Shown: positions 1 through 57,718 of the stretch, piece after piece | Numbering within the stretch: position 1 is the stretch's first letter | Layout of the letters: each line of letters starts with the position of its first letter | Assembly: GCF_041146795.1 (NCBI RefSeq) | Contig: NC_135169.1 | Coordinates: forward strand, 8,510,264 to 8,574,263 | Length of the DNA stretch: 64,000 bases | Origin: Maylandia zebra | Lineage: Eukaryota; Chordata; Actinopteri; Cichliformes; Cichlidae | Direction: 5' to 3' | Translations under genes and position numbers: made by a program | The notes under the pieces: model-generated | Seen by the model: the letters and a program-made list of their open reading frames with translations, nothing else | Told to the model about the DNA's origin: nothing | The model's database searches: none

Positions 1-463
1 GGGAGAGAAAGAAAGAAAACCAAAGGGGAGAAGAGACGGTGAGAAGGGGGGGGAAGAGAGAGAAAAAAAAAAAGAACTCCTGGGTCATCTGTATGGAGAA
101 AAAAAAAACAAGCAAAAAAAACAAACAGAGGAGACAGCAAACAACAAAGAGCAACATAATAATAGAGAAAACAAAGCACCATCACAATAAACTAGCTAGT
201 CATAGATATCAATATTTACTAAATAATAAACGATATTGTGCAGCACGCAAGATAGACAGCGCACAGTGTGCTTTGAGGTAGCAGCCAAGAAAGCTTTAGT
301 CCGCGTCTGTGAATACCCATGTGTGCATACCTGTGTGGATCAGCATGCTTGCATTCCAAAGGTTTCTCCATGTAATGATCTGCTAGGGAGTGTGGGGGGG
401 CCACAGCCCCGTCCTCCAGGGTGTGAAGCGGGTATGGAGGAGATCAAAACTCAGCCTTCCTAA
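1..463 (-). mobile_element. 5'-truncated copy of a retroposed element
   Basis: This stretch is the reverse complement of about 2815-3270, the inner part of the polyA-tailed element at 2511-3427, with only scattered differences. Read on the minus strand it starts at about 463, where the similarity ends, and runs off the left edge of the window before its 3' end. The purine-rich part (about 1-180) matches the pyrimidine-rich 3' part of the other copy. Short ORFs here are near-identical in both copies, but I recognise no protein in them. The sequence between 464 and 746 is unrecognised flanking DNA. Confidence 0.75.
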
Positions 464-746
464 CGTTCGCTGTTGGCCTGCTTAACAATGTGGGAATAAA
501 CAGTGGGGAATTATGCTACGTTTCGTGTCAGCTAATCGTTAGCCGGCCTGCGAGTAGGATTCCAGCCGGTTAGCCTGTCTGGCGTGTCGCCCGCAGCTCG
601 GGGGTTAACGCGGCCAGCAGGGCTCCGCTCGTAGCTCGGCTACATTGGGGAAATGTGTCAGAGTTCCAAGCATATGCTTTTACCTGTCAGCACTGTGACG
701 CAGGAGCTAATAAACAGTGGAAGGGGAATTCAGGTTGTGGCTAGCG

Positions 747-765
747 CCGGTGTTCTGACAAAACG
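747..765. repeat. Left terminal inverted repeat and CCGG duplication
   Basis: CCGG at 747-750 is followed by the 15-bp terminus TGTTCTGACAAAACG. The similarity to the right end continues weakly for a few bases (tcctacc against cccatca). Confidence 0.88.
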
Positions 766-879
766 TCCTACCTTGTCAAAACATCCTACCGTAGCGTAAA
801 TTTATGGTCTTGTCTATCAATCCGTGCTACCTTATCAGAATATGCTACCTTACGTAGTTAATGGCTCCGTCGTATAGGT

Positions 880-1388
880 AGGACGTTCAGATGGCCAATT
901 CACACTTAAAAACTTTGAGTTATTTCGCTAGGACGTTAAGAACATGCTTCCTGCTGGGATTTATTTAGGTAGCAAGTTCAGATGGCCAAATCACACTATT
1001 AAAACGTGCTTCCTGCTGGGATTTATTTGGGTAGCATGTTCAGATGGCCAAATCACACTATTAAAACATGCTTCCTGCATAGTTTTATTTAGGTAGCATG
1101 TTCAGATGGCCAAATCACACTATTAAAACATGCTTCCTGCATAGTTTTATTTGGGTAGCATGTTCAGATGGCAAAATCACACTATTAAAACATGCTTCCT
1201 GCATAGTTTTATTTAGGTAGCATGTTCAGATGGCCAAATCACACTATCAAAACATGCTTCCTGCATAGTTTTATTTAGGTAGCATGTTCAGATGGCCAAA
1301 TCACACTATCAAAACATGCTTCCTGCATAGTTTTATTTAGGTAGCATGTTCAGATGGCCAAATCACACTATCAAAACATGCTTCCTGC
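880..1388. repeat. Subterminal tandem repeat of the Ginger element, about 62-bp unit
   Basis: About eight head-to-tail copies of a roughly 62-bp unit occur here. Each contains ttcagatggccaaatcacac, then attaaaacatgcttcctgc and a T-rich stretch before ggtagcatg. The last copies are nearly identical; the first (near 885) is diverged and spaced more widely. The array lies inside the left end and just downstream of the stop codon of the minus-strand transposase gene. Subterminal repeats in DNA transposons can be transposase-binding sites; that role here is inference. Confidence 0.85.
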
Positions 1389-1463
1389 ACACAATCATCT
1401 AATGTTGACAAAGAATGCAAAGAGACATGGAGGGGGAAAGACAGCTGTTTTTATTAGAAGTTG

Positions 1464-1759
1464 TTATGTGTTTTCCTTACATTTTTTGCATTTATATTCT
1501 TGGTTGCTCTCTTTATATTTTGCACATGCAAAATGTGCCCATCTTTGGCAAGATTCACACTGCACCTGGAAAGGAAAAATAAATAGCTCATATTATGTTT
1601 GGTGAATACTATTAGTCAACATTTTAAACATGATTAGCAAGTAATGATACTAAGACTTATGTGTTTCTTTTGTTTTGTTTTGTCTTACCATTTCAATCAT
1701 GCTGCGGTCAGCGTCAGCATCTAACATAGAGCAAACAATGCAGTAATCCTCAGCGTTCC
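1464..1759 (-). other. PHD finger exons of the Ginger gene
   Basis: Exon 11 ends with [19 protein letters not shown]. Exon 12 begins [20 protein letters not shown] and ends [10 protein letters not shown] before the stop. Together they give the C4-H-C3 pattern of a PHD finger (CIVC, CESC, HFAC, CKKC) with the usual aromatic before the His. PHD fingers read histone tails, so a role in choosing chromatin targets is possible but is inference. Confidence 0.8.
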
Positions 1760-3300
1760 CTGAAACACATTCATTTTTAGGTTTTAATCAAACATTATTT
1801 ATTGATTAATTAAAAAATAATAGTAAATTTGTTCCACAAATACTTCATGGCAAATTAGTCCCTTGAATTTTTTTAATTAGACTTAAAGAAGGGTCTTATC
1901 TGAAAGTGTTTGAAAAGCAGTATTTAAATTGGAAGTACACACTCTAACGTGATAAGGACTTTACTGGACTTACCTCGATGTTCAAGTAGGGTGCAAGCTA
2001 TCTGCATTCGCTCCAGCACAACTGCTTCTGTAGTGGTTAATACTTCACTGACCTCTCCAAAAGCAAGGTAGTGTTCTGCAAACTGTGAGATTTCTCATTA
2101 TTATAATGTAAAGTCCTAATTGTAGCTAACAATAAATGGAATCATTTGAATAAGGGTTACCTTTAACAGCAAAACTCCGCAACTGCTGGAATCCTGTTGC
2201 TTGTTGTGTTGCATAGTCTGTAACTGCCACTCCATGGTGTCTTCATGCCCTCTCATCCTCAGAAAATTCCTATTTGAACAAAAATGTTTGTAATGAAACA
2301 AGAAATGTTTTATCTAAGAATAATACCTCAGTATCATGCATACCTCCAGTTGCGCAGAATTTTCCTGTCATAAACACCTTCATTCCCCATGGGGTCTATG
2401 AGCAGTATTCTCTGTGCAGAAATGTTGACAATCTAAAGAAAAAGTTAATAAATTAATTAAAATTACTATAGTTTTTGCCACTGAAAACCTATTTAAGAAT
2501 AACACTTTCAACACACCGGCTCACTCCTTGGCGGCCGCTTGTCGGGGCCTGGGGCCTGGGGCTCGCTCGGGCCCCTTTGGAGGTGGGGTGCCCCCGGCCT
2601 CTCGGCCTAGGGCTCGGTCACTCAGGCGCAGCTGGGGGCCGGCGGAGCTCACGGGCGCGTCACTGCAACTCCCCCTGACTTCTGCTCCGCGGCTGCTGGG
2701 CGAGCCCTCATCTGGGACTCTCCTCAGCTCTTACTGGGACAGTGGCGCGGCTGCCCCTCTGTTGGTCTTCCATGGTCTCTTGTGTTCTGGGGGCCTCTGG
2801 ATGTCTGGAGTTTTGATCTCCTCCATACCCGCTTCACACCCTGGAGGACGGGGCTGTGGCCCCCCCACACTCCCTAGCAGATCATTACATGGAGAAACCT
2901 TTGGAATGCAAGCATGCTGATCCACACAGGTATGCACACATGGGTATTCACAGACGCGGACTAAAGCTTTCTTGGCTGCTGCCTCAAAGCACACTGTGCG
3001 CTGTCTATCTTGCGTGCTGCACAATATCGTTTATTACTTAGTAAATACTGATATCTATGACTAGCTAGTTTATTGTGATGGTGCTTTGTTTTCTCTATTA
3101 TTATGTTGCTCTTTGTTGTTTGCTGTCTCCTCTGTTTGTTTTTGTTTGTTTGTTTGTTTGTTTTTTTTCTCCATACAGGTGACCCAGGAGTTTTTTTTTT
3201 TTTTTGTCTCTCTTCCCCCCCCTTCTCACCGTCTCTTCTCCCCTTTGGTTTTCTTTCTTTCTCTCCCCCTCTCTCTCTCATTCATTCCCCCTGTCCTATT

Positions 3301-3336
<36 letters not shown>

Positions 3337-6300
3337 ACAAAGGATGAACTGAAGCTCTGCCATCACGTAATGTCGCATACTGCTGTTTCTGATGTCATTT
3401 AGAGAAAAAAAAAAAAAAAAAAAAAAAGAATAACACTTTCAGCAAGAAACTGCTTCACAACAAATTAATAACTAAATGGACACATACCACAAGAATCCAG
3501 TGCATACCAAAGTTCACAGGGCACAACCACATGACATTTACATGGTGGCTTCTTCTGTACGGCTTGATATGGTCAATGCTGTAGTGATTTTTTAAAGTTG
3601 CTCCTTCCGTGTTTTTTAATCTCACACATTTGCCAGCAATGTCTTGAATGGTGTAGGGTCCTGAAAAATCTGGATCAAACCTTCCTCCCTTCCTTTCACG
3701 TTTCCTCATGTTCAAGAGAAGAACTTCATCTCCAACGCTGTACACAAGGTTTCTGTACTTCTTCTGGACTCGTCTGGCATAGGCTTCCTTTTGTAAGTCT
3801 TGGGACTTTGCCATATTTTCCTCTACAGTTTTTTTTAACTTGCCCTTGTGTGTCTCTTGTAGAAGATACAAAGTCACCGTAACTCGACTCCTCAGGGAGA
3901 ATGATGGAGGACAGCTAAAATTTTCACATTTTAAATTACAATTAAAATCATAAAGACAAATAATGCATGTGAAACATGAACTGAAAAATCTAACTATAAT
4001 AACTCATGTTTAAAAGTAAATATACTATTATAAAGCTTTGAGCACAGAAAGCCACAAAGATAGACTCATATCATTTTTTGTATAGTCATTTTTACTCTTG
4101 ATACACTTCCATAGGTGAACACATTATACTTAACGGTCTCCTCAAGATGTATTACTTTACATAAAGATACAAATATAAAGAAGTAACTAGTCACTTACTT
4201 TATCTTTTAAATGTTTCTTGCATATAGAAGTTAAGCAGAGAAGATTAAAGCTGCAGCCAATATCAATATGCACAATTTCCAATTAAGATTACATTTAATT
4301 TATGCATTATCATAGTTGTTGCATAAATAGAATTCCTTAATAACACTTACTGGGACTTCAACAGGAACTTCAGAAGGATATGTAGCTTCTCTCCCATACA
4401 TTAAACGGAATGGTGTGTATTTGGTTGTGGTGTGGACCTTGGACCTCAAAGAAAACAGTGTAGCATCCAGATACACATCCCAGTCATTCTGTTGACTGTT
4501 GACTAATTTTCTCAGGGCTCTACATGTGGACATAAAAAAAACACAATAGTGACAGTGTCTTAAAAGCAAATGAAATGTTACATACAAATAAAACATACCT
4601 TTTTATGTTGTCATTTGTCTTTTCGTCTAGGCCATTTGTCTGAGGGTGATATGCTGCTGTGACACTTCTTTCTATTTTCATTAAGCTGCAAAGTCTTGAG
4701 TTGAGCTTCAAAGAAAAAAGAAAATTGTTTTTTAAAAACAACCACACAAAACCTTTGGCCTGGCAGCTACTTGGCACACTGTGGCCAAGTATTTACCTAA
4801 AGAGGTATGGAAAAGTAAACTTAACACTTACCTCGTTAACAAATTCTCTTCCTTGGTCGGATAAAATTCGTTTTGGGCAGCCATGTCTATATATGAGTGA
4901 GCACAACTGATGAGCTACCTCAGCAGCACTTTTGCTTTTTAATGGAAAAGCCTCAACCCATTTTGAAAAATAGTCTGTTGCAGTCATAATGTACTGGAAG
5001 CCACTAGACGTTTTTGGAAGAGGTCCAGTTAGATCTATTCCGATTAGCTCCCAGACATGTGACACCTGTCAATGATAAAAGAATCACATTAATATGTAAT
5101 GTACATTATAACATTACTATTTTCTACTAAAATGCTACTGATATTTACCTTTATACACTGCAGTGGTTGCACAGCAGCCAATGGTTTTCCCATTTTTTGA
5201 CACTGGTCACAAGCCAGGACCTTAAAATTATTGAACGATCTTTATATTACCCAACAATCGCAATTAATTAAACAACAAAATTGCAAATGTTCTATAAAAA
5301 TACTCGATCAAGTGGCGAAACAGTGTTAATTACTGTACATCATCCTGAAATCTGGTACGTGTCTTCAATTCAATTAAATTTAATTTTATTTATATAGCGC
5401 CAAATCACAACAAAAGTCGCCTCAAGGCGCTTCATAGATACAGAGAAAAACCCAACAATCATATGACCCCCTATGAGCAAGCACTTTGGCGACAGTGGGA
5501 AGGAAAAACTCCCTTTTAACAGGAAGAAACCTCCGGCAGAACCAGGCTCAGGGAGGTGCGGCCATCTGCTGCGACCGGTTGGGGTGAGAGAAGGAAGACA
5601 GGATAAAGACATGCTGTGGAAGAGAGACAGAGGTTAATAACAGATATGATTCAATGCAGAGAGGTCTGTTAATACATAGTGAGTGAGAAAGGTGACTGGA
5701 AAGGAAAAACTCAATGCATCATGGGAATCCCCCGGCAGCCTACATCTATTGCAGCATAACTAAGGGAGGATTCAGGGTCACCTGGTCCAGCCCTAACTAT
5801 ATGCTTTAGCAAAAAGGAAAGTTTGAAGCCTAATCTTAAAAGTAGAGATAGTGTCTGTCTCCCGAATCCAAACTGGAAGCTGGTTCCACAGAAGAGGGGC
5901 CTGAAAACTGAAGGCTCTCCCTCCCATTCTACTTTTAAATACTCTAGGAACAACAAGTAGGCCTGCAGAGCGAGAGCGGAGCGCTCTAATAGGGTGATAT
6001 GGTACTACAAGGTCATTAAGATAAGATGGGGCCTGATTATTTAAGACCTTGTATGTGAGGAGCAGGATTTTGAATTCAATTCTGGATTTAACAGGAAGCC
6101 AATGAAGGGAAGCCAAAACAGGAGAAATATGCTCTCTCTTTCTAGTCCCTGTCAGGACTCTTGCTGCAGCATTTTGGATTAGCTGAAGGCTTTTCAGTGA
6201 GTTTTTTGGACATCCTGATAATAATGAATTACAGTAGTCCAGCCTGGAAGTAATAAATGCATGAACTAGTTTTTCAGCGTCACTCCGAGACAGGATATTT

Positions 6301-7563
6301 CTAATTTTAGAGATGTTGCGCAAATGGAAGAAAGCAGTCTTACATATTTGTTTAATATGTGCGTTGAAGGACATGTCCTGGTCAAAAATGACTCCAAGGT
6401 TCCTCACCGCGTTACTGGAGGCCAAGGTAATGCCATCCAGAGTAAGAATCTGGTTAGATACCATATTTCTAAGATTTTCAGGGCCGAGTACAATAACCTC
6501 AGTTTTATCTGAATTAAGAAGCAGAAAGTTAGCGGCCATCCAGGTCTTTATGTCTTTAAGACATTCCTGCAGTTTAACTAATTGGTGTGTGTTATCTGGC
6601 TTCATGGACAGATAGAGCTGGGTGTCATCTGCATAGCAGTGAAAATGTATGCTATGTCTTCTAATGATACTGCCTAAGGGAAGCATGTATAATGTAAACA
6701 GAATGGGTCCTAGCACTGAACCCTGTGGAACTCCATAATTAACCTCAGTGTGTGAAGAGGACTCTCCATTTACATGCACAAATTGGAGTCTATTAGATAG
6801 ATATGATACAAACCACTGCAGCACAGTACCTGTAATACCTACAGCATGTTCTAATCGCTCTAATAGGATATTATGGTCAACAGTATCGAACGCTGCACTG
6901 AGGTCTAGCAGGACAAGCACAGAGATGAGTCCACTGTCAGAGGCCATAAGAAGATCATTTGTAACCTTCACTAAAGCTGTTTCTGTGCTGTGCTGAGCTC
7001 TGAAACCTGACTGAAACTCTTCAAATAAACCATTCCTCTGCAGATGATCTGTTAGCTGTTTGACAACTACTCTTTCAAGGATTTTTGATATGAAAGGAAG
7101 GTTGGAGATCTTCAGGATAACTATGCATTCTATTGGTGCACTATTAACATACTATATATAAATAACAACTTTAAAAATACATACCCAATTCCCAATGTCA
7201 ACCGACATGCCATACCAGTAAAATCTGGAACAAATTGCAGTTCGAGTCTTGAGTACACCAGTGTGTCCACCGATGGGACTTGAATGAAACTCTTGGAATA
7301 GTCCCATGGCTTCTTCTTTTGTTTTTATCACTCTCCTGTTTCCAAACAAGAGCACTCCGCCTATATTTAAAAAAATGTAAATTAATTATAACATGTATTT
7401 AACCAATAATTACATTTAGTTGTTTATTTACATTACAATACTGACCCTTCAGTCTGAATTTTGCGGCGTATCTCCTAAGGGTTTGCCTCTGGGACTTATC
7501 GTATTCCGATGGGTAGGACCCAGCAGACAGAAACATGAGCAGTTCCTCGTATTTGTTCTCCAT
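1464..7563 (-). CDS. Ginger transposase: integrase, Ulp1-like protease and PHD finger, 12 exons, one frameshift
   Basis: I place exons at 7563-7446, 7360-7185, 5220-5149, 5065-4832, 4705-4599, 4519-4351, 3914-3488, 2432-2344, 2269-2161, 2082-1974, 1759-1689 and 1565-1464, all with GT..AG borders and matching phases. The start is ATG at 7561-7563 (MENKYEELL) and the stop is TAA at 1464-1466. The exons total 1783 nt, one more than a multiple of three. Domain order: HHCC zinc-binding (exons 2-3), DDE integrase core (exons 4-6), a short C-terminal domain ending HIKPYRR, then Ulp1-like and PHD parts. The reading frame breaks at an eight-base T run (3829-3836); removing one base would restore frame. 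As read, the protein ends soon after, in exon 7. The protein would cut and join transposon ends in the nucleus. A polyA-type AATAAA lies just past the stop (minus strand, near 1452). Confidence 0.85.
1974..2432 (-). other. Ulp1/C48-like cysteine protease exons of the Ginger gene
   Basis: The catalytic pattern of Ulp1 (SUMO) proteases is visible across exons. It has His in FGMHWILV at the end of exon 7 (near 3495), Asp in [11 protein letters not shown] in exon 8, and Gln..Cys in [13 protein letters not shown] in exon 9. Exon 10 continues as [20 protein letters not shown]. Phases join without a break. The part before the His is very short: only about 15 residues separate it from the end of the integrase region. 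The N-terminal half of a normal Ulp1 domain therefore appears to be missing or unrecognisable. Confidence 0.75.
2511..3427 (+). mobile_element. PolyA-tailed retroposed element with a likely 3' transduction
   Basis: The insert lies in intron 7 of the Ginger gene and is flanked by a direct repeat, gaataacactttca, at 2497-2510 and 3428-3441. The 5' part (2511-2750) is GC-rich, the 3' part is pyrimidine-rich, and it ends in A23 (3405-3427). A second A30 run sits inside at 3305-3334 and is followed by 70 bp of non-repetitive sequence before the final tail. That layout fits a transcript that read through its own polyA site. I see no reverse transcriptase, so it was moved by another element. An inverted, truncated copy lies at 1-463. 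The short ORFs in it are not recognised. Confidence 0.8.
3829..3836 (-). other. Frameshift site in the Ginger transposase (T8; A8 in the coding strand)
   Basis: Exon 7 enters in phase 0 from exon 6 and reads [18 protein letters not shown] up to the A8 run. After the run the conserved sequence ([20 protein letters not shown]) is in another frame. One base fewer in the run would join them, and the summed exon length is one base too long. It could be a true mutation, an assembly error in a homopolymer, or, less likely, a slippery site. Confidence 0.8.
4351..5220 (-). other. DDE integrase catalytic core exons of the Ginger transposase
   Basis: Exon 3 supplies the two cysteines of the zinc-binding domain (ACDQCQK); its histidines are in exon 2 (FHSS..GGHTG). 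Exon 4 has the first Asp in [12 protein letters not shown] and the second in [12 protein letters not shown]. Exon 5 has the Glu in [12 protein letters not shown]. All three catalytic residues are therefore present. Exon 6 carries the conserved [16 protein letters not shown] stretch. The same motifs occur in Ty3/Gypsy integrases, but in those the gene has no introns. Here the core is split by four introns with good donors (GTAAGT or GTATGT). Confidence 0.87.
5366..7110 (-). mobile_element. 5'-truncated L2/CR1-group LINE nested in Ginger intron 2
   Basis: The minus-strand 3' end is the common fish tail, read on the plus strand as ttcaattcaattaaatttaa then tttatatagcgccaaatcac. The body encodes a reverse transcriptase C-terminal half. 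The 5' break is near 7110, where the reading frame loses similarity just before [12 protein letters not shown]. The element sits wholly between Ginger exons 2 and 3, so the host exons are untouched. Confidence 0.8.
5793..7110 (-). pseudogene. LINE reverse transcriptase, N-terminally truncated, otherwise open
   Basis: The frame is open from the truncation point near 7110 to the stop at 5793, about 438 codons. It shows [13 protein letters not shown], the first catalytic Asp region [27 protein letters not shown], the catalytic [12 protein letters not shown], and the [11 protein letters not shown] thumb motif. The C-terminal part ([28 protein letters not shown]) is typical of fish L2/CR1-type elements. 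No endonuclease remains. The open frame despite truncation suggests a fairly recent insertion. Confidence 0.85.
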
Positions 7564-8010
7564 AACTAAGGAGAAAATTGGACAATTTCAACATGGCTTC
7601 GGAATCCATACAGTAAAATAAAACGACTACACGACGTTATCACGCAATTAACAAGTATGTGGTGCAGTAGTACTTTCTTCGACATAACAACGGAGCGTTT
7701 ATTCACCATAACAACGGAGCGTGGTGTCCAGTAACTGCAGGAGGACTAAAATAAATTGAGAAGGTTTGCAGAAGTTGAAAAGCACAAAATAAACACTTGG
7801 AATATGACTTCGAGTGAGCAGCTTAAGGTAAACAATTATCATCTGTAATAAAGAAGTAAAACTTATAATACAAACCTTTTTTCGAAAGCAACGAGATCAG
7901 CACAAGATCGGGGTAGGATGAAATAATAGGCGTGTACTATTTACACCGGAAACATGGCCGTTTTGAATTGTGCGCATGCGCAGTAACAACAAGTAGGGCA
8001 GCTTGATGGG

Positions 8011-8029
8011 CGTTTTGTCAGAACACCGG
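8011..8029. repeat. Right terminal inverted repeat and CCGG duplication
   Basis: CGTTTTGTCAGAACA is the perfect reverse complement of 751-765 and is followed directly by CCGG. Confidence 0.88.
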
Positions 8030-8030
8030 C

Positions 8031-10165
8031 TACCTGTTAGCACTTCCTGGTTAGCATGTGGCCCCGCCCCCTTGCTTGGTAGCAGAAGTATGGCAGCCCA
8101 CACGTCCCAAACATGTCTGTGTATGGCATTTTTGCCTTTTTATCGTAGGCACTGTGCTGGCTGAAGAAGCTGTTGCTTGCATGCACTGCTTTGTTGCCAG
8201 CGCGGACTAGACAGACCGTGCTGGGTTTGAAAGCATTAAATGACCCGCCCCTCCCCCTTCTCCTGCCTCCAAAAATGAGAGAGCAGGCTACTATGGGGAA
8301 CATGGCTGCCACTGCTGTGACTCCAGTCATGGCATGGGCCATGGGCTGGGTCCCCTCCCATACCTGTTGCTGATTTACTGCTGGCCCTTCCCACAGCGTC
8401 CCTCCCATGGCTCCGCCTCTGTGAGGCCTGGGCTTGGAGGTTGACTGACATGATGTTGAAGAAGCTTCCATCTTCTCCTTCGGTGTTGCCCACCTGTCCC
8501 TGGGCTGCCCTGGGCTGTCTGGCGAGTTGGGTCCTTTCGGCTCCTGATTGCAGCATGCTGGGTGTGGGAATTAACCCTTCCTGGGGTCCACTCTAGCTTA
8601 ATAGACCTCCAGGTTGTTGCTATCACGCAGCCTCAGTGCCTACTGCCTAAGGTGCCGCTGCTGCCGTATGTGCCCTGCCTCCTGGCGTTTATGATCCCCT
8701 GCCCGCAGTTGAATGCTGCCATGCATGGCAGGAGTAGTTGCCTTTGGCCCCTCCCTCGTAGCCCCCCCCCCCCCCCCCCCCCCTTGGTCCCTAGTTGCCC
8801 CTTCGGGCCTTCCCTGGGCAGGGCGGCATGCCCTGACAGGGGCGTGAGGGTTACTTATGCCCTGCTGGTAGCCATTCTGTCACTTCCTCTGTGGATGGTG
8901 CTTGACACGACAGCTGCAGGCGGGCTGGGCATGGAGAGCCCACCCCAATCCCGTGCCTTTCAGGCTACATGAGGATGATGGCTGCAGCGTTCCCTTCCAG
9001 GGCCCCGCCTCTGCGAGGCCTGGGCCGGTGGAGGTTGATTATCGTGAGGTGGATGTTGAAGAAGCTTCAATCCCCTCTGGCAGCCACTGGGGTAGGGTCC
9101 GGACGGGTGAACCCATGTCTGGGTTCCCTGGGTTCTGGGGCCCTCCCATGGCATTCTCTCCCATGACCCCGCCTCCTTGAGGCCTGGGCTGGTGGAGGTT
9201 GATGGTCAGGAGGTTGATGTTTATGACGCTTGGCTCCGGTCAGACGACTAGACAGACTGATGTAACTGTCTGTCTGGCCTGCGGCCACCTCGCTTTAAAG
9301 AAGCTGAGGGGCCTCTGCAGGCGTGCAGAGACGGCCGTGTTGAGTTGAGGTGGGGAGGACTTGGAGCCTAGGCTCAGCTGTCCTCCAGCCACTCTCCTCC
9401 CTCCTGACATCCTCAGCTAGCCTAGTGGCCAGCTCTGCTGCAGGCTGTGCTCTCCTGGCCTATTTCCCGCTTCGCGGGTTCATACGTCAGTCGGACCTCG
9501 CTGCGTCTGACCGCTCGGCCAGCAGTTGACAGTTCTCCAGCCTGCGGCGCTGGCTCTCTGTCTGGCACATTCTCCAAATGTTGCGGGTTTACGTGGCCGG
9601 CAGGGCCCGCTCAGTGAGCTGACATCCCCGGTGAGTCACGTCCCTGGCTGCACTGCAGCTCCGGGCAGTCTTCCCCTGGCATGTTGCCTGCATTCGTCGG
9701 TTGGACCTCGCTGCGGCGTGTATGCCTTTTCCAGCCTATTTTAGCCGGATTCTCTCTGGCATGTCAGCTGCTGCAGCTCCCGGTTGTGTTCCCTTGGTGT
9801 GTTGCCTGCGCTTCGCCAGTTTACACGCCAGCTGGGACTCGCTGTGTCTGATCATTCGGCCGGCGCGTGGGTGTTCTCCGGCCTGCAACGCTATGTATGG
9901 GTGTCTTGTTTTTGAAGTTCAGTCTTGCTGCTCCCCTGTCTGCGGACAGCGCCAGCCCCCCCCCCTCCCTGTCTCTCAACAGCTCGGGGTGGCTTCAGCT
10001 TTGAGGATGGACGGGTCACATCCCAAGCTTCACCTGTGGTTGCCCGCTTCGCTGGCGTACACACCAGTCGGACCTCGCTGTGGTGAGTGAGAGTTCTCCA
10101 ACTTTAGTGCCAACTCTCTGTCTGGCATTGCCCGCATGTTGTAGCCCTATGCGACAGGCGGGCTG
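8031..10165. repeat. GC-rich block of diverged internal repeats
   Basis: No gene is supported here. A motif ccccgcctc(t)gngaggcctggg followed by ggaggttga occurs near 8411, 9003 and 9166. A second motif, a variant of cagtcggacctcgctgcg after a gcttcgc element, recurs near 9466, 9680, 9805 and 10042. A C22 run lies at 8762-8783. The ORFs in this stretch are low-complexity and overlap on both strands, so I leave them out. Similar GC-rich sequence resumes at 14291 beyond the RTE-like LINE. Confidence 0.5.
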
Positions 10166-10184: not shown

Positions 10185-11915
10185 AGCGGGCGACCAGCGG
10201 CGGAGGTCTGCCGCGCAACCAGTATGCTGCTTTAGGTGCCGCAGGTTCTCTTGCTTGACCAACGATTATCTTCCACGCTTTTCGATCCAAGGCGATGGTT
10301 CTTGCCTGCTCGAGGTCAAGTCGAAGGGCCTTCAAATCATCCTGGATTTGTTTCATCCATGTCTTCTTTGGTGCATTTCGATGCACCCTCCAATCGGTGG
10401 GGCGGGTCAACCAGAGTAGGCCATGGGGGTAGCGGCTCGGGTCCATTCGACAAATGTGGCCAAACCAACGGAGTCGGTGGCGCTGGATTAGGTCGCGATC
10501 GTCGGTTGGCTGCCGCAGCTGGTGAGGATGGTGTCATTCGAATGACGGTCGTATGCATCTAAGGCAACGCATTTGGAAAACTTCGAGCTTGCTCAGGTCG
10601 TGTTTTAGCATTGTCCACGTCTCTGCACCGTAAAGTAGAATGGGCAGGATCAGGGTTCGGTAAAGGAGGATCTTTGTCGCTAATGAGATGTTGTTCTTCT
10701 TCCAGACGCACCAGCGCAGGGAGGCGAATGCTGCCGCCGCCTGCCCAATTCTGGAGCGTATCTCCGCTGATGATGCCACTTTCTTCTCCTCGACGAGGGA
10801 CCCCAGATATTGAAATTGTTGGACTTGTTTGATCTGCACACCATCAAGGTGGATGATCGTTGGTGAGCCGTCGGTGGTCAGGACTTTGGTCTTCTCGGCG
10901 TTAACCTTGAGGCCGTACAGTTTGGAGTGCCGGGCGATGTCATAGAGGATGTGAGTTGCCTCGGTGTCGTCTTCGGCAAAAATGGCACTATCGTCAGCGA
11001 ACATTAGATCGGTGATAAATCGATCGATCGAGGCTTGGACTCCGCGGCGGCCCTCGAATGTTTGTGCATTATCGCATCGATGACGATGTTGAACAACAGC
11101 GGTGACATCACATCGCCCTGCCGGACCCCTGTCATGATGGGGAATTCTTCGGACACTTCGTCATGAATACGTACCTGGCTAGTCGAGCCATCGTAGGCGG
11201 TTTGTAGTAGCTCGATGATCTTCACTGCTGGCCGGTCGTTGCAATCAAACGCAGACTTGAAATCAATGAAGATGATGACTGTTCGGCGTCCGCATCTGAT
11301 CCGTTCCTCCATGAGTCGACGTAGGGTGAAGATCTGGTCGCTGCAGCCTCGTCCGGGTCGGAACCCGGCCTGTTCTTCCCGGCTGGTCATCTCACGGTGA
11401 TTTTGAAGGCGTGATTGAATTATTTTCATAAGGACCTTGCCGACGATGGACAGTAAGCTGATGCCCCGGTAGTTTTTACATTCTCGATTGTCGCCTTTCT
11501 TTAGGATAGGAATGACAGCCGCCTTCTTCCAATTTGCTGGTATCACATTTGATGTCCAGATCAGTTTGAATAATGAGTGTAGACGTATGACGAGGACTTC
11601 TCCTCCAGCTTTGAGGGCTTCTGCTGCCACATGATCAGGGCCAGCGGCCTTGTTGTTCTTTAGCGAATGGATTGCATCAGACATCGGCACCGTAGGAGGG
11701 TCGATGATGGGCGGCGCTGCAGCCGGACGTTGGGGCGGATCGTGATTGTAGAGTTCATTGAAGTATTCTTTCCACCATTGCAGGCGCTCCGCAGTTGACT
11801 TTACAAACGAGCCATCCACCTTCCTGATGTTATCATTCATCGTCTTGCACTTGCCACTGAGACTACGTATGGTCTGGTACAACACCCTGTAGTCTTGTCG
11901 TTCGGCCGTATTTTC
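10185..11915 (-). pseudogene. RTE-like LINE reverse transcriptase, frameshifted
   Basis: Frame 11915-11004 carries KNNKAAGPDHVAAEALKAG, IPILKKGDNRECKNYRGISL, QAGFRPGRGCSDQIFTLRRL, IIFIDFKSAFD and GVRQGDVMSPLLFNIVID. About ten residues appear missing right after SAFD. A frameshift near 11004 moves the catalytic MFADDSAIFAEDD into 11004-10534. Another shift near 10530 moves the end (WLTRPTDWRVHRNAPKKTW) into 10446-10185. The first ~150 residues of the long ORF ending at 12335 are antisense of the inserted Rex1-like element and do not belong to it. Confidence 0.82.
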
Positions 11916-12917
11916 TGTGGTGTCCCTGTGGTGCCCCCCCCCACAGGGGCACCACGGGGGACTGTCCTCTCCCCTTTCCTCTTCACCCTCTACACCACAG
12001 ACTTCAGCCACTGCACGGAGACCTGCCATCTTCAGAAGTTTTCTGATGACTCTGCGGTGGTTGGATGCATCAGCAGGGATGATGAGACAGAGTACCGGGC
12101 TGTGGTCGACTCCTTTGTCACGTGGTGTGAGCAGAATCATCTGCAGCTCAATGTGGCAAAGACCAAGGAACTGATCGTGGACTTCAGGAAGACCAGGAAA
12201 CACTTGGGGGTCAGTGTTGACATTGTGGAGGACTATAAATACCTTGGAGTACACATTGACAATAAACTGGACTGGGCTAAAAACACCACAGCACTTTACA
12301 GGAAGGGCCAGAGTCGTCTCTATTTTTTGAGGCAACTGAGGTCCTTCAACATCTGCCAGAAAATGCTCAGGATTTTCTATGAGTCTGTTGTGGCCAGTGC
12401 GATCCTCTATGCTGTTGCATGCTGGGGGAGCAGGCTGAGGGTCGCAGATGCCAACAGACTTAATAAACTAATCCGTAAGGCCAGCAATGTTGTGGGGATG
12501 GAGCTGGACTCCCTCAAGGTGGTGTCGGAAAGGCGGATGCTGTCCAAGATAAAGACAATGTTGGATAACACCTCCCACCCACTCCATGACATGCTGGTCA
12601 GTCACAGGAGCACGTTCAGTGAGAGACTGAGATTATCGAAAAGCACCACTGAACGACACAGGAAATCTTTCCTGCCTGTGGCCATCTCCCTGTACAACGC
12701 ATCCACTTAACACACTGTTTACTGCTACAACTACACATGTTTCTTTTCCAGCTATTTATTTATGACTGACTTATGTATGTATGTATATATATGTATATAT
12801 TGTACTATTCTTAGTTAGCGTATTGTCTGTCTTGTCTTAATGTTGGTTTATAATGGAGCACTGTAACAAAAAATAATTTCCCCCAGGGATCAATAAAGTA
12901 TTCTGATTCTGATTCTG
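11916..12917 (+). mobile_element. Rex1-like LINE fragment inserted in the RTE-like LINE
   Basis: A plus-strand, 5'-truncated LINE. It begins at the GAPRGTVLSPFLFTLYT region of the reverse transcriptase. It continues through a degenerate catalytic box (FSDDSAVVG instead of F/YADD), KTKELIVDFRKTRKHLG and YKYLGVHIDNKLDW, and ends FLPVAISLYNAST at 12710. The 3' tail is gggatcaataaagtattctg with a repeated attctg unit, as in Rex1/CR1-group elements. It splits the linker of the RTE-like LINE. Confidence 0.82.
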
Positions 12918-13110
12918 ATTTTAATAATGGATTGGATTTATATAGCGCTTTTCAAGGCACCCAAAGCGCTTTACAATGCCACTATTCATTCACTCTCACA
13001 TTCATACACTGGTGGAGGCAAGCTACAGTTGTAGCCACAGCTGCCCTGGGGCAGACTGACAGAAGCGAGGCTGCCATATCGCGCCATCGGCCCCTCTGGC
13101 CAACACCAGT
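12918..13110 (-). repeat. Dispersed fish repeat (tatatagcgcttttcaaggc type)
   Basis: Begins tggatttatatagcgctttt and contains cacccaaagcgctttacaat and tacactggtggaggcaagct, ending near gccaacaccag. I recognise it as a very common teleost repeat, probably the 3' part of a LINE in minus orientation. A diverged relative is at about 23640-23800. Confidence 0.6.
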
Positions 13111-13279
13111 AGGCAAGTTCCTCGGTGACTTTGTTCCAGTACGCCTCACGGTCTGCTTTCATCTTCAGCCGCACCTCACGGTTTAGCCGACGACACTTTT
13201 CAAAGTTGGTTAGCTTGGCCTTCTTGCGTTTGACGACCAAGTCGAGACAGTCGTCCGAGATCCACGGTTGTGTGTGACG

Positions 13280-14270
13280 TCAGGCGGGTGGGCACAGCGG
13301 CTTGGCGCAGTCCAAGATGGCTTCCGATATTGTTTGCTCTTCTTTGTTGGCATCGTCGCTCAGGGGGAGTAGGGCGAAGCGGTTCGATAATGCGATCTGG
13401 AATTCTTGACGGCGGTCATTGTTGGTGAGGTGATGCCAGCCCAGCCTGGGCGGTTTGGGTGTCGGCCTCTTCGCTCGTTGGAGCTTCAGGCGCACTCTGG
13501 CGCGGAAAAGATAGTGATCAGAGCCGCAGTCAGGTCCGCGCATCGCCCGGACATCTTGCAAGGATGATCGGAACCGGGTGTTGATGAGCACATAGTCGAG
13601 TAGCACTGAGTCATTTCCTCTTGGGTTGCGCCATGTCAGACGGTGCTTGAGCGAGTGTTGGAATAGCGTGTTCCCGAGGACCAGTTTGTTGGCGGCGGCA
13701 AATGACAGCAATCGTAGCCCGTTGTCGTTCATTTTTGCATGGCCGAATTTTCCCATCGTCGATTCCCAGCCAGTGCAGTCTTCTCCGACGTGGGCGTTCA
13801 TGTCGCCGGCGATCATGATCATGCCGGTTTGAGGTAGGGAGTCCAAGACGTCTTGCAGGCAATCATAGAAATCATCTTTAGATGCGTTGGAGTTCATTTC
13901 GGTCGGTGCATAGACCGCGATGATATGTAGCTTGATTGTACCGTTGACAGTTAGGACAGCGATACGGTCAGATATAGGTTGGAAGGCCACGACGCTTGCA
14001 GAGAACCGATGGTGTACCATGAAGCCAACTCCGGCTTCTCTTTTGTCGCCGCCCGAGTAATACAACGTCATCTTTTCGTCCATGGCCGGCACTTCGACAG
14101 AGACAGTGCCAGTTCCAGTCAGCCGAAGTTCCGATAGGGCCGTTATCGAGACGTTGAGTTTTGAAAGTTCATGGGCGATGATCTCCTTCTGCCCAACAAG
14201 ATGACCAGTTCTGACATTCCATGCTGCAATGTTGATCGGCGTCTTGGGCGTGAGACGATGGAATTGATGG
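13280..14270 (-). pseudogene. RTE-like LINE endonuclease (APE type)
   Basis: Frame open from about 14270 to 13280. It begins INIAAWNVRTG and has LSELRLTGTG carrying the metal-binding Glu. It continues AGVGFMVHHRFSAS, IIAVYAPTE, MIMIAGDMNAHVGED (the catalytic Asp/Asn pair), DYVLINTRFRSSLQD and a GSDHYLFRARVRL end with the catalytic Asp-His. This order matches apurinic-type endonucleases of non-LTR retrotransposons. The protein then continues toward the reverse transcriptase, with the frame broken near 13280. Confidence 0.82.
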
Positions 14271-14290
14271 CCAGTAGTCCATTTCCCACC

Positions 14291-14612
14291 AGCGCCCTGG
14301 GTCCCCAGCGCTGGCGCATCGGCTGCCCCGGATGCGGGCTGTTACTTGGTGGCTCGGTGTGCTGCGTTCCCTGGCTATCTGCCTCGCGGTTCCTGGGCTA
14401 ACATTGAGTGGCCGATCACTTGCAGTCCTGCGTCCTGCAGGACCGGTTCAGGCCAGTCTGGTATCTGCAGACTGCTGCCTCCACCCCCTGGCTCGGCCTT
14501 CGTGTCTGGCTTGGCCCTGACTGGGGTGGTGTGTACATATGTGTATTTGTACATAGTTCTTCACTCTCGGCAGTTTGGTTGCACTGTCTCCTCGCGGGGT
14601 GTCTTAAAGAGT
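14291..14612. other. GC-rich sequence, no gene seen
   Basis: Composition resembles 8031-10165, on the other side of the RTE-like LINE. It has a short inverted repeat around cctgcgtcctgcagg. No coding region is supported. Confidence 0.3.
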
Positions 14613-17899: not shown

Positions 17900-18114
17900 G
17901 CTTGTGTTTTGGATGAACCCGTTTGTGTCTCAGTGTGTGGCTTGATCTCCACCACTTACTTTTAGAACTGAAGAAGCTTTACTGGTGAAACTTGCAGACC
18001 ATTTTCTTTCCAAGCTCCTTTGATCACTGACGCTTGTTTTTCTCTTTGTAAAATGAAATTTAAATTGAATTTTGAATAAAATGTGTTTTTTCCTTTCTCC
18101 CTCAGAGTGCAGAC
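17900..18114 (+). promoter_or_regulatory. TRIM copy 1: 5' flank with intron acceptor
   Basis: The stretch matches the reverse complement of about 57719-57950 upstream of TRIM copy 2 and, in part, 34992-35155 upstream of the TRIM remnant. A polypyrimidine tract and acceptor (tttctccctcag, ending 18105) sit nine bases before the ATG at 18115, so the coding exon follows a 5' intron. No 5' exon or promoter is visible upstream, where a Gypsy remnant lies instead. Confidence 0.7.
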
Positions 18115-19770
18115 ATGTCAGCTGCCAACAATCTGAGATCTGAAAATCAGTTTCTGTGCTCCATCTGTCTGGATGTGTTCACTGATCCAGTCACTACATC
18201 ATGTGGACACAACTTCTGCAAAACCTGCATCAGTCAGCACTGGGACATGAATGTCATCTGTAAGTGTCCCTTGTGTAAAGAGACTTTCTACACTCGACCT
18301 CAGCTGAGGGTCAACACCTTCATCTCTGAGATAGTTGCTCAGTTCAGACGTGAAGCTCAGCAGAAAGCCAGCAGCAGCAGCTCAGAGCAACAAGCTGCCA
18401 AACCAGGAGAAGTTCCCTGTGACGTCTGCACTGGAACCAGACTGAAGGCCCTGAAGTCCTGCCTGGTGTGTCAGACCTCCTACTGTCAGACTCACCTGGA
18501 GCCTCATCTGACAGTGAAACGTCTGAAAAGACATCAGCTGGTTGATGCTGTGGAGAACCTGGAAGGCAGGATGTGCACGAAGCACGATAAACTCCTGGAG
18601 CTGTTCTGTAAGACCGACCAGACATGTGTCTGCATGCTCTGCTCTGCTTTAGACCACAAGAACCACGAGTTTGTTCCTCTGAGAGAAGAATATGAAGGAA
18701 AGAAGGCAGAGCTGGAGAAGACAGAGGCTGAGATTCAACAGATGATCCAGAAGAGACGACTGAAGATTCAGGAGATCACAGAGTCGGTGAAGATGAGTAA
18801 AGATGCTGCAGACAGACAGAAAGCAGAAGGTGTTCAGGTCTTCACGGCTCTGAAGGAGTCTGTTGAGAGACGCCTGAAAAAGTTCATAAAGGAGATCGAA
18901 GACAAACAGGAAGCTACAGAGAAACAGGCTGAAGGTCTCATCAAAGATCTGGAACAGGAAATCTCTGAGCTGATGGAGAGAAGCTCTGAGGTGGAGCAGC
19001 TCTCACGCTCTGAAGACCACCTCCACCTCCTCCAAAGCTTCTCCTCCCTGAAAGCTGCTTCACCCACCAAGGACTGGACAGAGGTCAGAGTCCGTCCACC
19101 ATCATATGAGGGGACTGTGGTGAGAGCTGTGGAGACACTGGAGGAGACACTCTGGAAAGATATGAATGAGCTGTTTGAGGCTGAGCTGCAGAGGGTGCAG
19201 CAGTATGCAGTAGATGTGTCTCTGGATCCTGATACAGCACATCCTTATCTCATCCTGTCTGATGATGGAAAACAAGTGAAGTATGGTGATGTGAAGAAGA
19301 AACTTCCAGACAATCCAGAGAGATTTTCTCCATGTCCTAATGTTTTAGGAGAGCAGAGTTTCTCTTCAGGCAGATTTTACTTTGAGGTTCAGGTTAAAGG
19401 AAAGACTAAATGGGATTTAGGAGTGGCCAGAGAGTCGATCAACAGGAAGGGAAACATCACATTGAGTCCTCAGGATGGTTTCTGGATTGTGAGGTTGAGA
19501 AATGGAAATAAGTACAGTGCTTGTGCTTCACCTCCAGTCCGTCTCTGTCTTCATCCTGGTCCTGAGAAGGTGGGGGTGTTTGTGGATTATGAGGAGGGTC
19601 TGGTCTCCTTTTATGATGTAGGTGCTGCAGCTCTGATCTACTCCTTTACTGGCTGCTCCTTCACTCACAAACTCCACCCTTACTTCTGTCCCAGTAACAA
19701 TGATGGCGGTAAAAACTCTGCACCTCTGATCATCTGTCCTGTAAATCAAACTGAGTTGATCAACGACTGA
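18115..19770 (+). CDS. TRIM E3 ubiquitin ligase, bloodthirsty-related type (copy 1)
   Basis: One open coding exon of 551 residues. The RING finger (about 15-57) has the C3HC4 pattern in [20 protein letters not shown] and CPLCKETF. A B-box 1 (about 102-131, CDVCTGTRLKALKSC) and B-box 2 (about 154-188, CTKHDKLLELFCKTDQTCVC) follow. A long coiled coil (about 190-300) and a PRY-SPRY/B30.2 domain (about 370-545; LDPDTAHPYLILSDDGKQVK, VGVFVDYEEGLVSFYDVGAA) complete the protein. TRIM proteins of this kind attach ubiquitin to targets chosen by the B30.2 domain and, in fish, form large families linked to antiviral immunity. The start follows a splice acceptor by nine bases. It is a close paralogue of the minus-strand gene at 56015-57709; the length and all zinc ligands look intact. 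Confidence 0.93.
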   Translation: MSAANNLRSENQFLCSICLDVFTDPVTTSCGHNFCKTCISQHWDMNVICKCPLCKETFYTRPQLRVNTFISEIVAQFRREAQQKASSSSSEQQAAKPGEVPCDVCTGTRLKALKSCLVCQTSYCQTHLEPHLTVKRLKRHQLVDAVENLEGRMCTKHDKLLELFCKTDQTCVCMLCSALDHKNHEFVPLREEYEGKKAELEKTEAEIQQMIQKRRLKIQEITESVKMSKDAADRQKAEGVQVFTALKESVERRLKKFIKEIEDKQEATEKQAEGLIKDLEQEISELMERSSEVEQLSRSEDHLHLLQSFSSLKAASPTKDWTEVRVRPPSYEGTVVRAVETLEETLWKDMNELFEAELQRVQQYAVDVSLDPDTAHPYLILSDDGKQVKYGDVKKKLPDNPERFSPCPNVLGEQSFSSGRFYFEVQVKGKTKWDLGVARESINRKGNITLSPQDGFWIVRLRNGNKYSACASPPVRLCLHPGPEKVGVFVDYEEGLVSFYDVGAAALIYSFTGCSFTHKLHPYFCPSNNDGGKNSAPLIICPVNQTELIND

Positions 19771-31193: not shown

Positions 31194-32985
31194 TGTATTT
31201 ATGTATTTATTTATGTATTTAAGTATTTATTGTCATTGTCAGAGAACAATGAAATTGCGTTTGGGGCTTCCATACAACCCGTAAATAAAATAATGAAGAA
31301 AATAATAAATACCCCTTAAAACCCAAGTGTAAATATTTAACCCAGTGTGACTCCAGTACAACAAGACAATCCTTAGCAACAACATGAGAAAATGACAAGT
31401 AATGTTCATAAGAAATTCAGACAAAGACCTGAGAAACATGACAAAATACAACAATGCAACCCATTCAATATTATTGTACTGTGAGACATGATGTCAGATA
31501 TGATAGTTATCTATTTAAGAAAGAGGGAGGGGGGGGGGGGGCAGGAGGGGGAAGAGAATAAAGATATGATGCACCAATGCAGACCAGTTCATTGCTATTA
31601 AGAAGTTGGATATGGTTATTGTCCGTGAGAGGGGGGCAGAGAGTTCAGGAGCCTCACAGCCTGTGGATACAGGCTGTTGGCCAGTCTGGATGTTCTGGCC
31701 TGTATAGACCTGTACCTTCTCCCTGAGGGCAGCAGATGGAAAAGGTGGCGCGCAGGGTGATGTTGGTCCCGCAGGATACTGTGCACCCTCCTCAGACAGC
31801 GAGTGGGGAAGATATTACTGATCTCTGGCAGACTTGTTCCAATAATTCTGCCAGCTTCTTTCACCACCCGCTGGAGTGCTTGCTGATCGGCCTTGGTGCA
31901 GCTGGGGAACCACACTAGAAATCCATACGTCAGAACGCTGCTGATGGCACAGTTGTAGAAGTTCAACATCAGAGATCTGGGAATGTGTGCGCTCCGCAGT
32001 CTCCTCAGGTAGTAGAGGCGCTGTTGGGCCTTCCGTACAACTGAGGTGATATGGTTGCCCCAGGACAGGTCCTCGGTCACAGTTACCCCCAAGAATTTAA
32101 AACTGCTCACCCTCTCCACCGCCTCACTGCCAATGAAGAGAGGCAGATGGTTGTTATGACCCCTCTTCCGGAAATCTACAATGATCTCCTTGGTCTTTTT
32201 GGTGTTTAAGACCAAGTTATTGTCGTGGCACCATGACTCTAGTTGTTGCACCTCTGTCCTATAGTTTGTCTCATCATTGTTGGATATAAGTCCGAGCACT
32301 GTAGTGTCATCTGCAAACTTAACAATGAGATTGGACGCGCAGGAGGAAATACAGTCATGGGTGAAGAGAGTGTATAGCAGAGGGCTCAGAACACACCCCT
32401 GAGGGGCACCGGTGTTGACCACAAGGGTGGAAGAGGTGTTCTTACCCACTCTGACACTCTGTCTACGGTTAGTGAGGAAGTCCACAATCCAGTTGCACAG
32501 AGAGGAGTTAAGTCCCAGTTGGTGGAGTTTGGGACGGAGTTTGTATGGCCGGATGGTATTAAAAGCCGAGCTGTAGTCTACAAAGAGGAGCCGTGCATAG
32601 GTGTTCCTGTGTTCCAAGTGCTTCAGTAATGTGTGCAGCACTGTGGCGATCGCATCCTCGGTTGACCGGTTCTCCCTGTATGCAAACTGGTGCGAGTCCA
32701 GGGATGGTGGAAAAGCAGCTCTGATGTGTTTAATAACCAGTCTCTCCAGGCATTTGGCGGGAATGGGGGTGAGTGGCACAGGTCTGAAATCGTTCAGACA
32801 TGTGACATTTGACTGTTTTGGGATGGGAACGATGGTTGCTGCTTTGAAACCGGATGGTACCAGTGAACAGGACAACGAGGTGTTATATATAGAGGTGAAG
32901 ACGTCCGCCAGGTCCGCAGCACAGTCTTTTAGCACCCGGCCCAGCACTCCATCTGGCCCGGCCGCCTTCCTGCTTTGGTTATTTG
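31194..32985 (-). mobile_element. 5'-truncated Rex1/CR1-group LINE
   Basis: The 3' end on the minus strand reads gcaatttcattgttctctga caatgacaataaatacttaa, a tail typical of this LINE group. The body codes for a reverse transcriptase. The 5' break is near 32985, just before [11 protein letters not shown]-rich run (about 31526-31541) lies in its 3' UTR. Confidence 0.82.
31616..32985 (-). pseudogene. LINE reverse transcriptase, N-terminally truncated
   Basis: Open from [20 protein letters not shown] to the stop at 31616, about 456 residues. Motifs are [48 protein letters not shown] with a catalytic Asp, [25 protein letters not shown] with the catalytic Asp pair, and [12 protein letters not shown]. 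The C-terminus, [16 protein letters not shown], is characteristic of fish Rex1-like elements. The residues before RKAAG are flanking DNA. No endonuclease remains, so the copy is dead although its frame is open. Confidence 0.85.
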
Positions 32986-33299
32986 TCTTTTGGTTGAAAG
33001 TAAACTGAGAGAGGACTTTTTTTATTAGTGATCTTAATAATACTTTTTTTAATCTAATTGAATACAACCTATTTGTGTTTGATTGTCAGTCCAAAGAGGG
33101 AGAGAGGAAAGAGGAGAACATGAGGAGAAAGTACAAGGTCAGGAAGAACCAGGTAAGAAAACAGACAGGAAACAGTGACAGGCACAACAGAAACTGTTAA
33201 ACTGGCAAAGAAAAAACCCCAACTAAGTTTACTCATACAATCTGGAAGTTGTGTTCTCCCTATATTAAAGCTGCTATACCGAGTCTGCTAAACAAACTG

Positions 33300-57709: not shown

Positions 57710-57718
57710 GTCTGCACT

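Follow-up and report, generated by a model that had tools for sequence, protein, structure and literature searches.

What kind of element occupies positions 751–8025 of a 64,000-nt stretch of Maylandia zebra contig C3 (G000:C3:8510264-8574263; hereafter the window), and does it belong to a family that can still move? An earlier note, made from the letters alone, had described a near-complete Ginger transposon with perfect 15-bp ends, a CCGG duplication, twelve phase-compatible exons, all catalytic residues of the integrase and a single base out of frame, and had taken it to be either recently active or one of a family with active members. Having searched the genome (962 Mb, 63 contigs) for related copies, we consider the locus as a whole best explained, with a probability of roughly nine in ten, as a non-autonomous copy of a cut-and-paste transposon of Ginger1 type that has suffered an internal deletion.

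The window element and its full-length relative

The element is bounded by perfect 15-bp terminal inverted repeats, TGTTCTGACAAAACG, at 751–765 (plus strand; the 3′ end of the gene's strand) and 8011–8025 (minus strand; the 5′ end of the gene's strand). CCGG, read from the sequence, stands directly outside both, at 747–750 and 8026–8029, and arms taken from 746–768 and 8008–8030 are 96% alike over 23 positions. Between the ends, the minus strand encodes an integrase zinc finger, the D-D-E residues and a GPY motif, spread over twelve exons that are separated by introns beginning with GT and ending with AG.

Numbered after the full gene described below, exon 1 (7446–7563) contains the ATG and the YPYY motif, as defined in PMC2836005. 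Exon 2 (7185–7360) supplies the histidine half and exon 3 (5149–5220) the CxxC of an H2C2 finger, exon 4 (4832–5065) the integrase core with both catalytic aspartates (D and D, LSDQG), and exon 5 (4599–4705) the catalytic glutamate (HPQTNGLDE), followed by exon 6 (4351–4519). The next exon (3488–3914; 427 bases, one of them extra) is a fusion of true exon 7, which holds the GPY motif and, within a run of A, a frame break of one base, with the end of true exon 11, which holds the histidine of a Ulp1-type protease. Further on lie exons 12 (2344–2432) and 13 (2161–2269), contributing the D of LLIDPMGN and the Q and C of QQDSSSCGV, respectively, which we take to be the remaining Ulp1 residues. Exon 14 (1974–2082), exon 15 (1689–1759), in which a PHD-like finger starts, and exon 16 (1464–1565; the twelfth in the window), with the end of this finger and the stop, complete the minus-strand series.

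The full-length gene is found in a copy on contig C33 (L040; G000:C33:3448560-3456230). Here, 16 exons of 118, 176, 72, 234, 107, 169, 607, 116, 42, 72, 66, 89, 109, 109, 71 and 102 bases, with GT-AG at all introns, together give an uninterrupted reading frame of 752 codons and a stop. The L040 protein matches the Pfam families H2C2 (6.4e-15), rve (2.9e-11) and Peptidase_C48 (4.1e-11) above their cut-offs, while PHD (5.3e-5, 23.6 bits) falls just under its cut-off of 24.0. Its relatives among solved structures include the Ty3 polyprotein (3.7e-21), PFV integrase (1e-19), SENP1 (3.7e-13) and PHF13 (4.4e-4). Read by eye, the YPYY motif lies in exon 1 (SYPSEYD..RRYAAKF) and GPY in exon 7 (SGPYTI), and the integrase core shows D-35-E spacing.

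Set against L040 and a further copy, L056, the window lacks ~1.4 kb comprising the end of exon 7, exons 8, 9 and 10, and the start of exon 11, i.e. the front half of the Ulp1-type protease, the back half being kept. The junction, with a 2-base overlap, lies at 3529–3534. The converse, a ~1.4-kb insert in L040 near window positions 3532–3558, was rejected: the stretch is coding sequence lost from the window, and L056 and a second family (see below) carry the same exons. Because exons 8–10 are present in that second family too, the window must have lost ancestral sequence through deletion. The deletion itself preserves the frame, so that the twelve window exons are phase-compatible once the frame break is set aside. 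The window's right end is also internally shortened, the inverted repeat being perfect over 22 bp in L040 and over 15 bp in the window.

Two retro-inserts interrupt the window copy. One is a piece of a long interspersed element (LINE) with a reverse transcriptase (452-amino-acid frame) at 5368–7108 on the minus strand, flanked by duplicated TCTTCA (5362–5367 and 7109–7114) and absent from L040 and from another copy, L058. The other, on the plus strand at 2514–3425 (912 bp), is poly-A-tailed with a 19-bp target duplication containing one mismatch (2495–2513 and 3426–3444), and is absent from L039, L040 and L058. A second, inverted copy of its body lies just outside the element, 97% alike (window 1–452 versus 2808–3267). 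An intron of L040 has its own hairpin-like insert of ~120 bp (L040 2990–3111), as judged by eye.

Hence the perfect ends, the CCGG duplication and the kept catalytic residues of the earlier description hold, and the Ginger identity can be narrowed to Ginger1-type (YPYY, H2C2, D-D-E, GPY, Ulp1, PHD-like finger, CCGG/CCGT). Twelve exons can indeed be read, from a gene that has 16 when full length, and the one-base break is real, in a copy that is also deleted and twice interrupted. The element is not near-complete, however, given ~1.4 kb of deletion, the missing exons 8–10, the broken frame and the two retro-inserts.

Independent copies, empty sites and a second deleted copy

Other copies share the borders of the window element: the 15-bp end has 60 exact matches genome-wide, compared with 2 for its reversed control. 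We read 30 of the 60, including the 20 that fall in one array on C2; the ten outside that array are flanked by CCGG (8), CCTG (1) or CCAG (1), with two of the eight CCGG-flanked ends being the window's own and two belonging to a duplicate, L039. The C2 array (G000:C2:19755885-20075748; L010–L029) presents twenty Ginger 3′ ends flanked by CCGA, all on the same strand and spaced ~4–34 kb apart, which we read as one element end copied together with the large tandem array that contains it.

Target duplications are complete in three further copies of this family, hereafter family 1: CCGT stands on both sides of L040, and CCGG on both sides of L056 (C3:610.6 kb) and of L057. L056 retains all 16 exons, and L057 has an insert in exon 6 and gave no match to exons 7–8.

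L040 lies within a multi-copy repeat, of which at least 40 other, near-identical versions are empty. When its flanks were joined via one CCGT, all 40 places scored (out of 312 candidates) matched at 92–99%, each over at least bases 6–399 of 399 and hence across the junction. Three of these junctions were read: on C2 and on C1, one CCGT stands there and nothing else has been gained or lost, and at the C33 junction CCAT is found in its place. Insertion of L040 hence brought in the element along with a 4-bp duplication, as expected of transposition. To the eye, the right flank of L040 resembles part of a coding exon.

These sites bear on the best-surviving alternative, namely that segmental duplication or gene conversion accounts for most of the family's spread, with the lesions that L058 shares with the window (see below) explained in the same way. 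Exactly such a duplicate exists: L039, on C3 at 161 kb from the window, has the same flanks and matches it at 100% over 4,885 bp. On its other side L039 and the window are 98.4–98.6% alike and their tandem arrays have 18.3 and 7.3 units, respectively; this one-sided identity and the array difference could reflect either recent conversion or an assembly effect. Spread by duplication is, however, at odds with the expected single target in the empty sites of L040, with L040, L056, L057 and L058 each beginning at the terminal repeat behind CCGG or CCGT amid flanks that differ from the window's, and with the 200-bp flanks around 12 end matches of the second family, which bear no likeness to one another. 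We therefore regard it as improbable, and transposition as the main route by which the family reached these sites.

L058 (C19) has a deletion junction identical in every base to that of the window, together with the identical frame break. It also differs least from the window (15 of 3911 sites, versus 27 of 2918 for L057, 45 of 3814 for L056 and 60 of 3801 for L040). Since L058 shares junction and frame break behind a CCGG of its own, the already deleted form was probably moved in trans by the enzyme of another copy, and this would have happened before the two retro-inserts entered the window copy. Gene conversion of L058 is an alternative source of the shared lesions.

A second family and the one-sided arrays

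With exon 4 as query (150 of 2627 candidates scored), six places were identical at the amino acid level, 13 were 87–90% identical, three matched partially at 80–83%, and eight reached 49–55%; rows under 49% were mostly long open frames, read as Gypsy. We treat the 87–90% group as a second family (family 2). Two of its copies, L059 (C15) and L060 (C22), have 16 exons as in L040, 13 of the 16 lengths and all phases being equal, where the equality of phases is partly built in because the family-2 splice sites were placed by likeness to L040; one intron has a GC donor. The coding sequences of L059 and L060 show no difference over 2226 bases, and the family-2 protein is identical to that of L040 at 499 of 737 aligned residues (68%). 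CCGG stands on both sides of the C22 copy. The left end of family 2 has 18 exact matches, 12 of which were read: ten are genuine ends (flanked by CCGG in eight cases, CAGG in one and CACC in one), and two, L073 and L074, were set aside as chance. From its near-identical copies, family 2 appears to be the younger family, and these copies to be very young.

Between the families (L059/L060 versus L040; own Nei-Gojobori script), the ratio of nonsynonymous to synonymous change (dN/dS) is 0.22 overall. By region, it is 0.24 for YPYY plus H2C2, 0.06 for the core, 0.18 after the core including GPY, 0.56 for the linker, 0.30 for Ulp1, 0.35 for the interval between Ulp1 and PHD, and 0.08 for PHD, where silent changes are saturated. 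That the Ulp1 and PHD-like parts are constrained along with the integrase core suggests that they play a role in transposition. As far as the sequence can tell, the family with active members envisaged by the earlier note finds support: by the other copies that share the borders, by the open frame of L040 through 16 exons, by the fit of its joined flanks to empty sites (single CCGT at two of the three junctions read), and by the near-identical copies of family 2.

Both families carry a tandem array on the gene's 3′ side. In family 1 the unit is 62 bp, with 7.3 copies in the window (936–1389) and 18.3 in L039; the array of L040 is longer, its unit being called as 51 bp, and none was called in L056. 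The family-2 arrays have a 63-bp unit and 25.4 and 27.4 copies. A motif, AAC(A/G)T(C/G)CT(A/T)CC, fills these arrays: it matches 17 times in the window element (14 inside the array), 39 times in L039 (36), 38 times in L040 (34), six times in L056 (0) and 29 times in the C22 element (28), and all matches outside arrays lie within ~260 bp of an element end. The array units of both families have the word AACATGCTACC in common, and an equally long word arose in 2 of 500 shuffles. We propose the motif as a putative transposase-binding site. A precedent for binding arrays is the Drosophila transposon Galileo, with multiple transposase-binding sites in its terminal repeats, although Galileo belongs to the P superfamily and differs in its enzyme (with a THAP domain) and terminal layout (PMC3688188).

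In the mechanism we envisage, the full-length family would encode a single transposase of ~750 residues from 16 exons, comprising YPYY, H2C2, D-D-E core, GPY, Ulp1-type protease and PHD-like finger. This enzyme would bind the element ends via the motif that also fills the 62/63-bp array, and, in the manner of retroviral integrases, would link the 3′ ends of the element to target positions staggered by 4 bp. The Ulp1-type protease may act on SUMO, and the PHD-like finger may act on chromatin. A full-length relative of this kind would have supplied the enzyme that mobilised the deleted form.

Classification and the origin of introns

The features assembled above are those of Ginger1, i.e. a transposase resembling Gypsy integrase, complete with H2C2 finger and D-D-E core, YPYY and GPY/F motifs, a C-terminal Ulp1 domain and PHD-like finger (in L040), and a 4-bp target duplication of CCGG (window, L056, L057, C22 copy) or CCGT (L040). 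Indeed, the published elements Ginger1-5_HM and Ginger1-9_HM share YPYY, H2C2, D-D-E, GPY, Ulp1 (and PHD in 9_HM), CCGG/CCGT targets, introns and small family size with the elements described here (PMC2836005). Ginger2/TDD elements, by comparison, have an AT-rich RTATAY target and neither YPYY nor GPY/F, whereas the target here is the GC-rich CCGG and both motifs are found.

Several observations weigh against this reading or parts of it. The Ginger1 description of Bao et al. 2010 gives terminal inverted repeats of ~40–270 bp, TGTNR ends, CCGG/CCGT targets, a Ulp1 or OTU protease at the C terminus, in some cases with PHD, and, in its Table 1, 0–4 introns (PMC2836005). Here the longest inverted repeat is the perfect 22 bp of L040, followed by 15 bp in the window and ~7 bp in family 2, and the ends read TGTTC, agreeing in TGT and having C rather than a purine as fifth base; because repeat length and fifth base depart, we file the element as a Ginger1 variant rather than a typical member. 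Exons are predictions from splice letters and homology, those of family 2 having been placed by likeness, as noted. L056 has a damaged splice donor, with a small deletion at that of exon 3, and changes beside the protease cysteine. L040 and L056 differ at a dN/dS of 0.64 (27.5 changing, 11.5 silent), which makes recent constraint within family 1 look weak. In the stretch fetched for L058 the far end was not found, which leaves CCGG visible at one border of this copy. Between the two families, array units show weak likeness, with their alignment score reached in 7 of 500 shuffles, and the end motif was picked after the sequences had been viewed, so we treat it as a lead.

Could the window element instead be a fragment of a Gypsy/Ty3 retrotransposon with long terminal repeats (LTRs), its integrase exon resembling Ginger through shared ancestry? 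The core does match rve and the Ty3 and PFV integrases, and the genome contains many long-frame rve matches. LTRs and reverse transcriptase/RNase H are not combined in this element, however: the sole reverse transcriptase seen is that of the LINE piece, which has its own target duplication and is absent from L040 and L058, and the 20 direct-repeat families listed for positions 1–9000 include no LTR pair. The 15 introns of L040, the terminal inverted repeats and the CCGG/CCGT duplications also speak against a Gypsy fragment, as does exon 4 itself, for which long-frame, Gypsy-read rows reach at most 44% identity among the 150 scored, whereas the eight best rows outside the two families, at 49–55%, are short, exon-like frames of 96–116 amino acids. 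The outcome that the earlier note named as fatal to its reading, best protein matches to LTR retrotransposons together with nearby LTRs, was therefore not what we observed. We give this alternative very little credence. That we are dealing with a host gene, domesticated and fixed in the manner of GIN1/GIN2, is just as implausible, for although the element is intron-rich like GIN genes and shares introns 4 and 5 with a GIN2-like gene, it forms a multi-copy family with terminal inverted repeats and target duplications at different sites, has empty sites for L040, and keeps the D-D-E residues, the second D of which is lost in the GIN2-like gene. Taken alone, these residues would also be compatible with a GIN1-like gene, because they are retained in mammalian GIN1 (PMC3424704); GIN2 is described as immobile between OGFOD2 and ABCB9, with altered catalytic residues (PMC3424704, PMC2836005). 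The Ginger1-type transposon thus remains the preferred reading.

The candidate GIN2-like gene in this genome is L077 (C4), with an integrase-derived backbone, as in the transposon. Its exon 4 measures 234 bases, as in the transposon, and its exons 5 and 6 measure 104 and 166 bases (107 and 169 in the transposon). Owing to this correspondence, introns 4 and 5, which border exon 5, match those of the transposon in both position and phase, and the splice sites at the outer edges of the block (exon 4 acceptor, exon 6 donor) are likewise shared with equal phases; the match covers L077 exons 4–6. Another locus, L061, was rejected as the GIN2 gene, having kept the E in a broken frame, and L077, with its second D lost, fits better. 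L061, L078 and L079 represent further Ginger1-like lineages or relics, some of whose exons are bounded at similar places; L078 (C11:32881500-32888500) is an older relic with weak Ulp1 traces. Two of the eight exon-4 rows at 49–55%, L062 and L079, were fetched. As Bao et al. 2010 reported three introns common to GIN genes and a Hydra element (PMC2836005), the introns shared with L077 extend this GIN/Hydra pattern to a vertebrate transposon.

Elsewhere in the window, 18076–19770 (plus strand) and 56015–57754 (minus strand) each hold a long open frame; the two are closely related and resemble TRIM genes (RING, B-box and SPRY by eye). Frames resembling non-LTR retrotransposons, with endonuclease and reverse transcriptase read by eye, lie at 11004–14341, 31616–33085 and 45074–50882 on the minus strand.

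Ginger1 itself is known, and its presence in fish is not new, as fish repeat surveys already count Ginger elements in teleosts; in the parts seen, these surveys give counts, coverage or divergence, without exon structure, ends or targets (FishTEDB PMC6404401; PMC4746887; PMC7915175). Our literature search, largely at the level of titles, abstracts and passages and with Repbase and Dfam outside its scope, turned up no structural account of a fish Ginger1 element. The 15 introns, the short inverted repeats and the one-sided 62/63-bp arrays depart from what has been published; of such arrays we found no mention in the Ginger1 description of Bao et al. (PMC2836005). A bolder picture, which we offer tentatively and with the odds somewhat against it, is that of a Ginger1 lineage in this vertebrate genome, with a 16-exon transposase gene, whose movement continues today or ended only a short time ago. 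It would use a fast-changing one-sided satellite of 62/63-bp units, built on the motif by which the enzyme recognises the element ends, as a docking platform, and from an element of this sort GIN2 would have inherited its introns instead of gaining them once domesticated.

Bao et al. 2010 called the excision mechanism of Ginger1 unknown (PMC2836005), and Chalopin et al. 2012 left open whether GIN1 and GIN2 inherited their introns from the transposon or acquired them once domesticated (PMC3424704). Young, full-length, intron-rich copies of a Ginger1-type element in a vertebrate make both questions testable, with intron positions directly comparable and empty sites present in the same genome. 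Such full-length, very young relatives could show how the host genes descended from these transposons got their introns.

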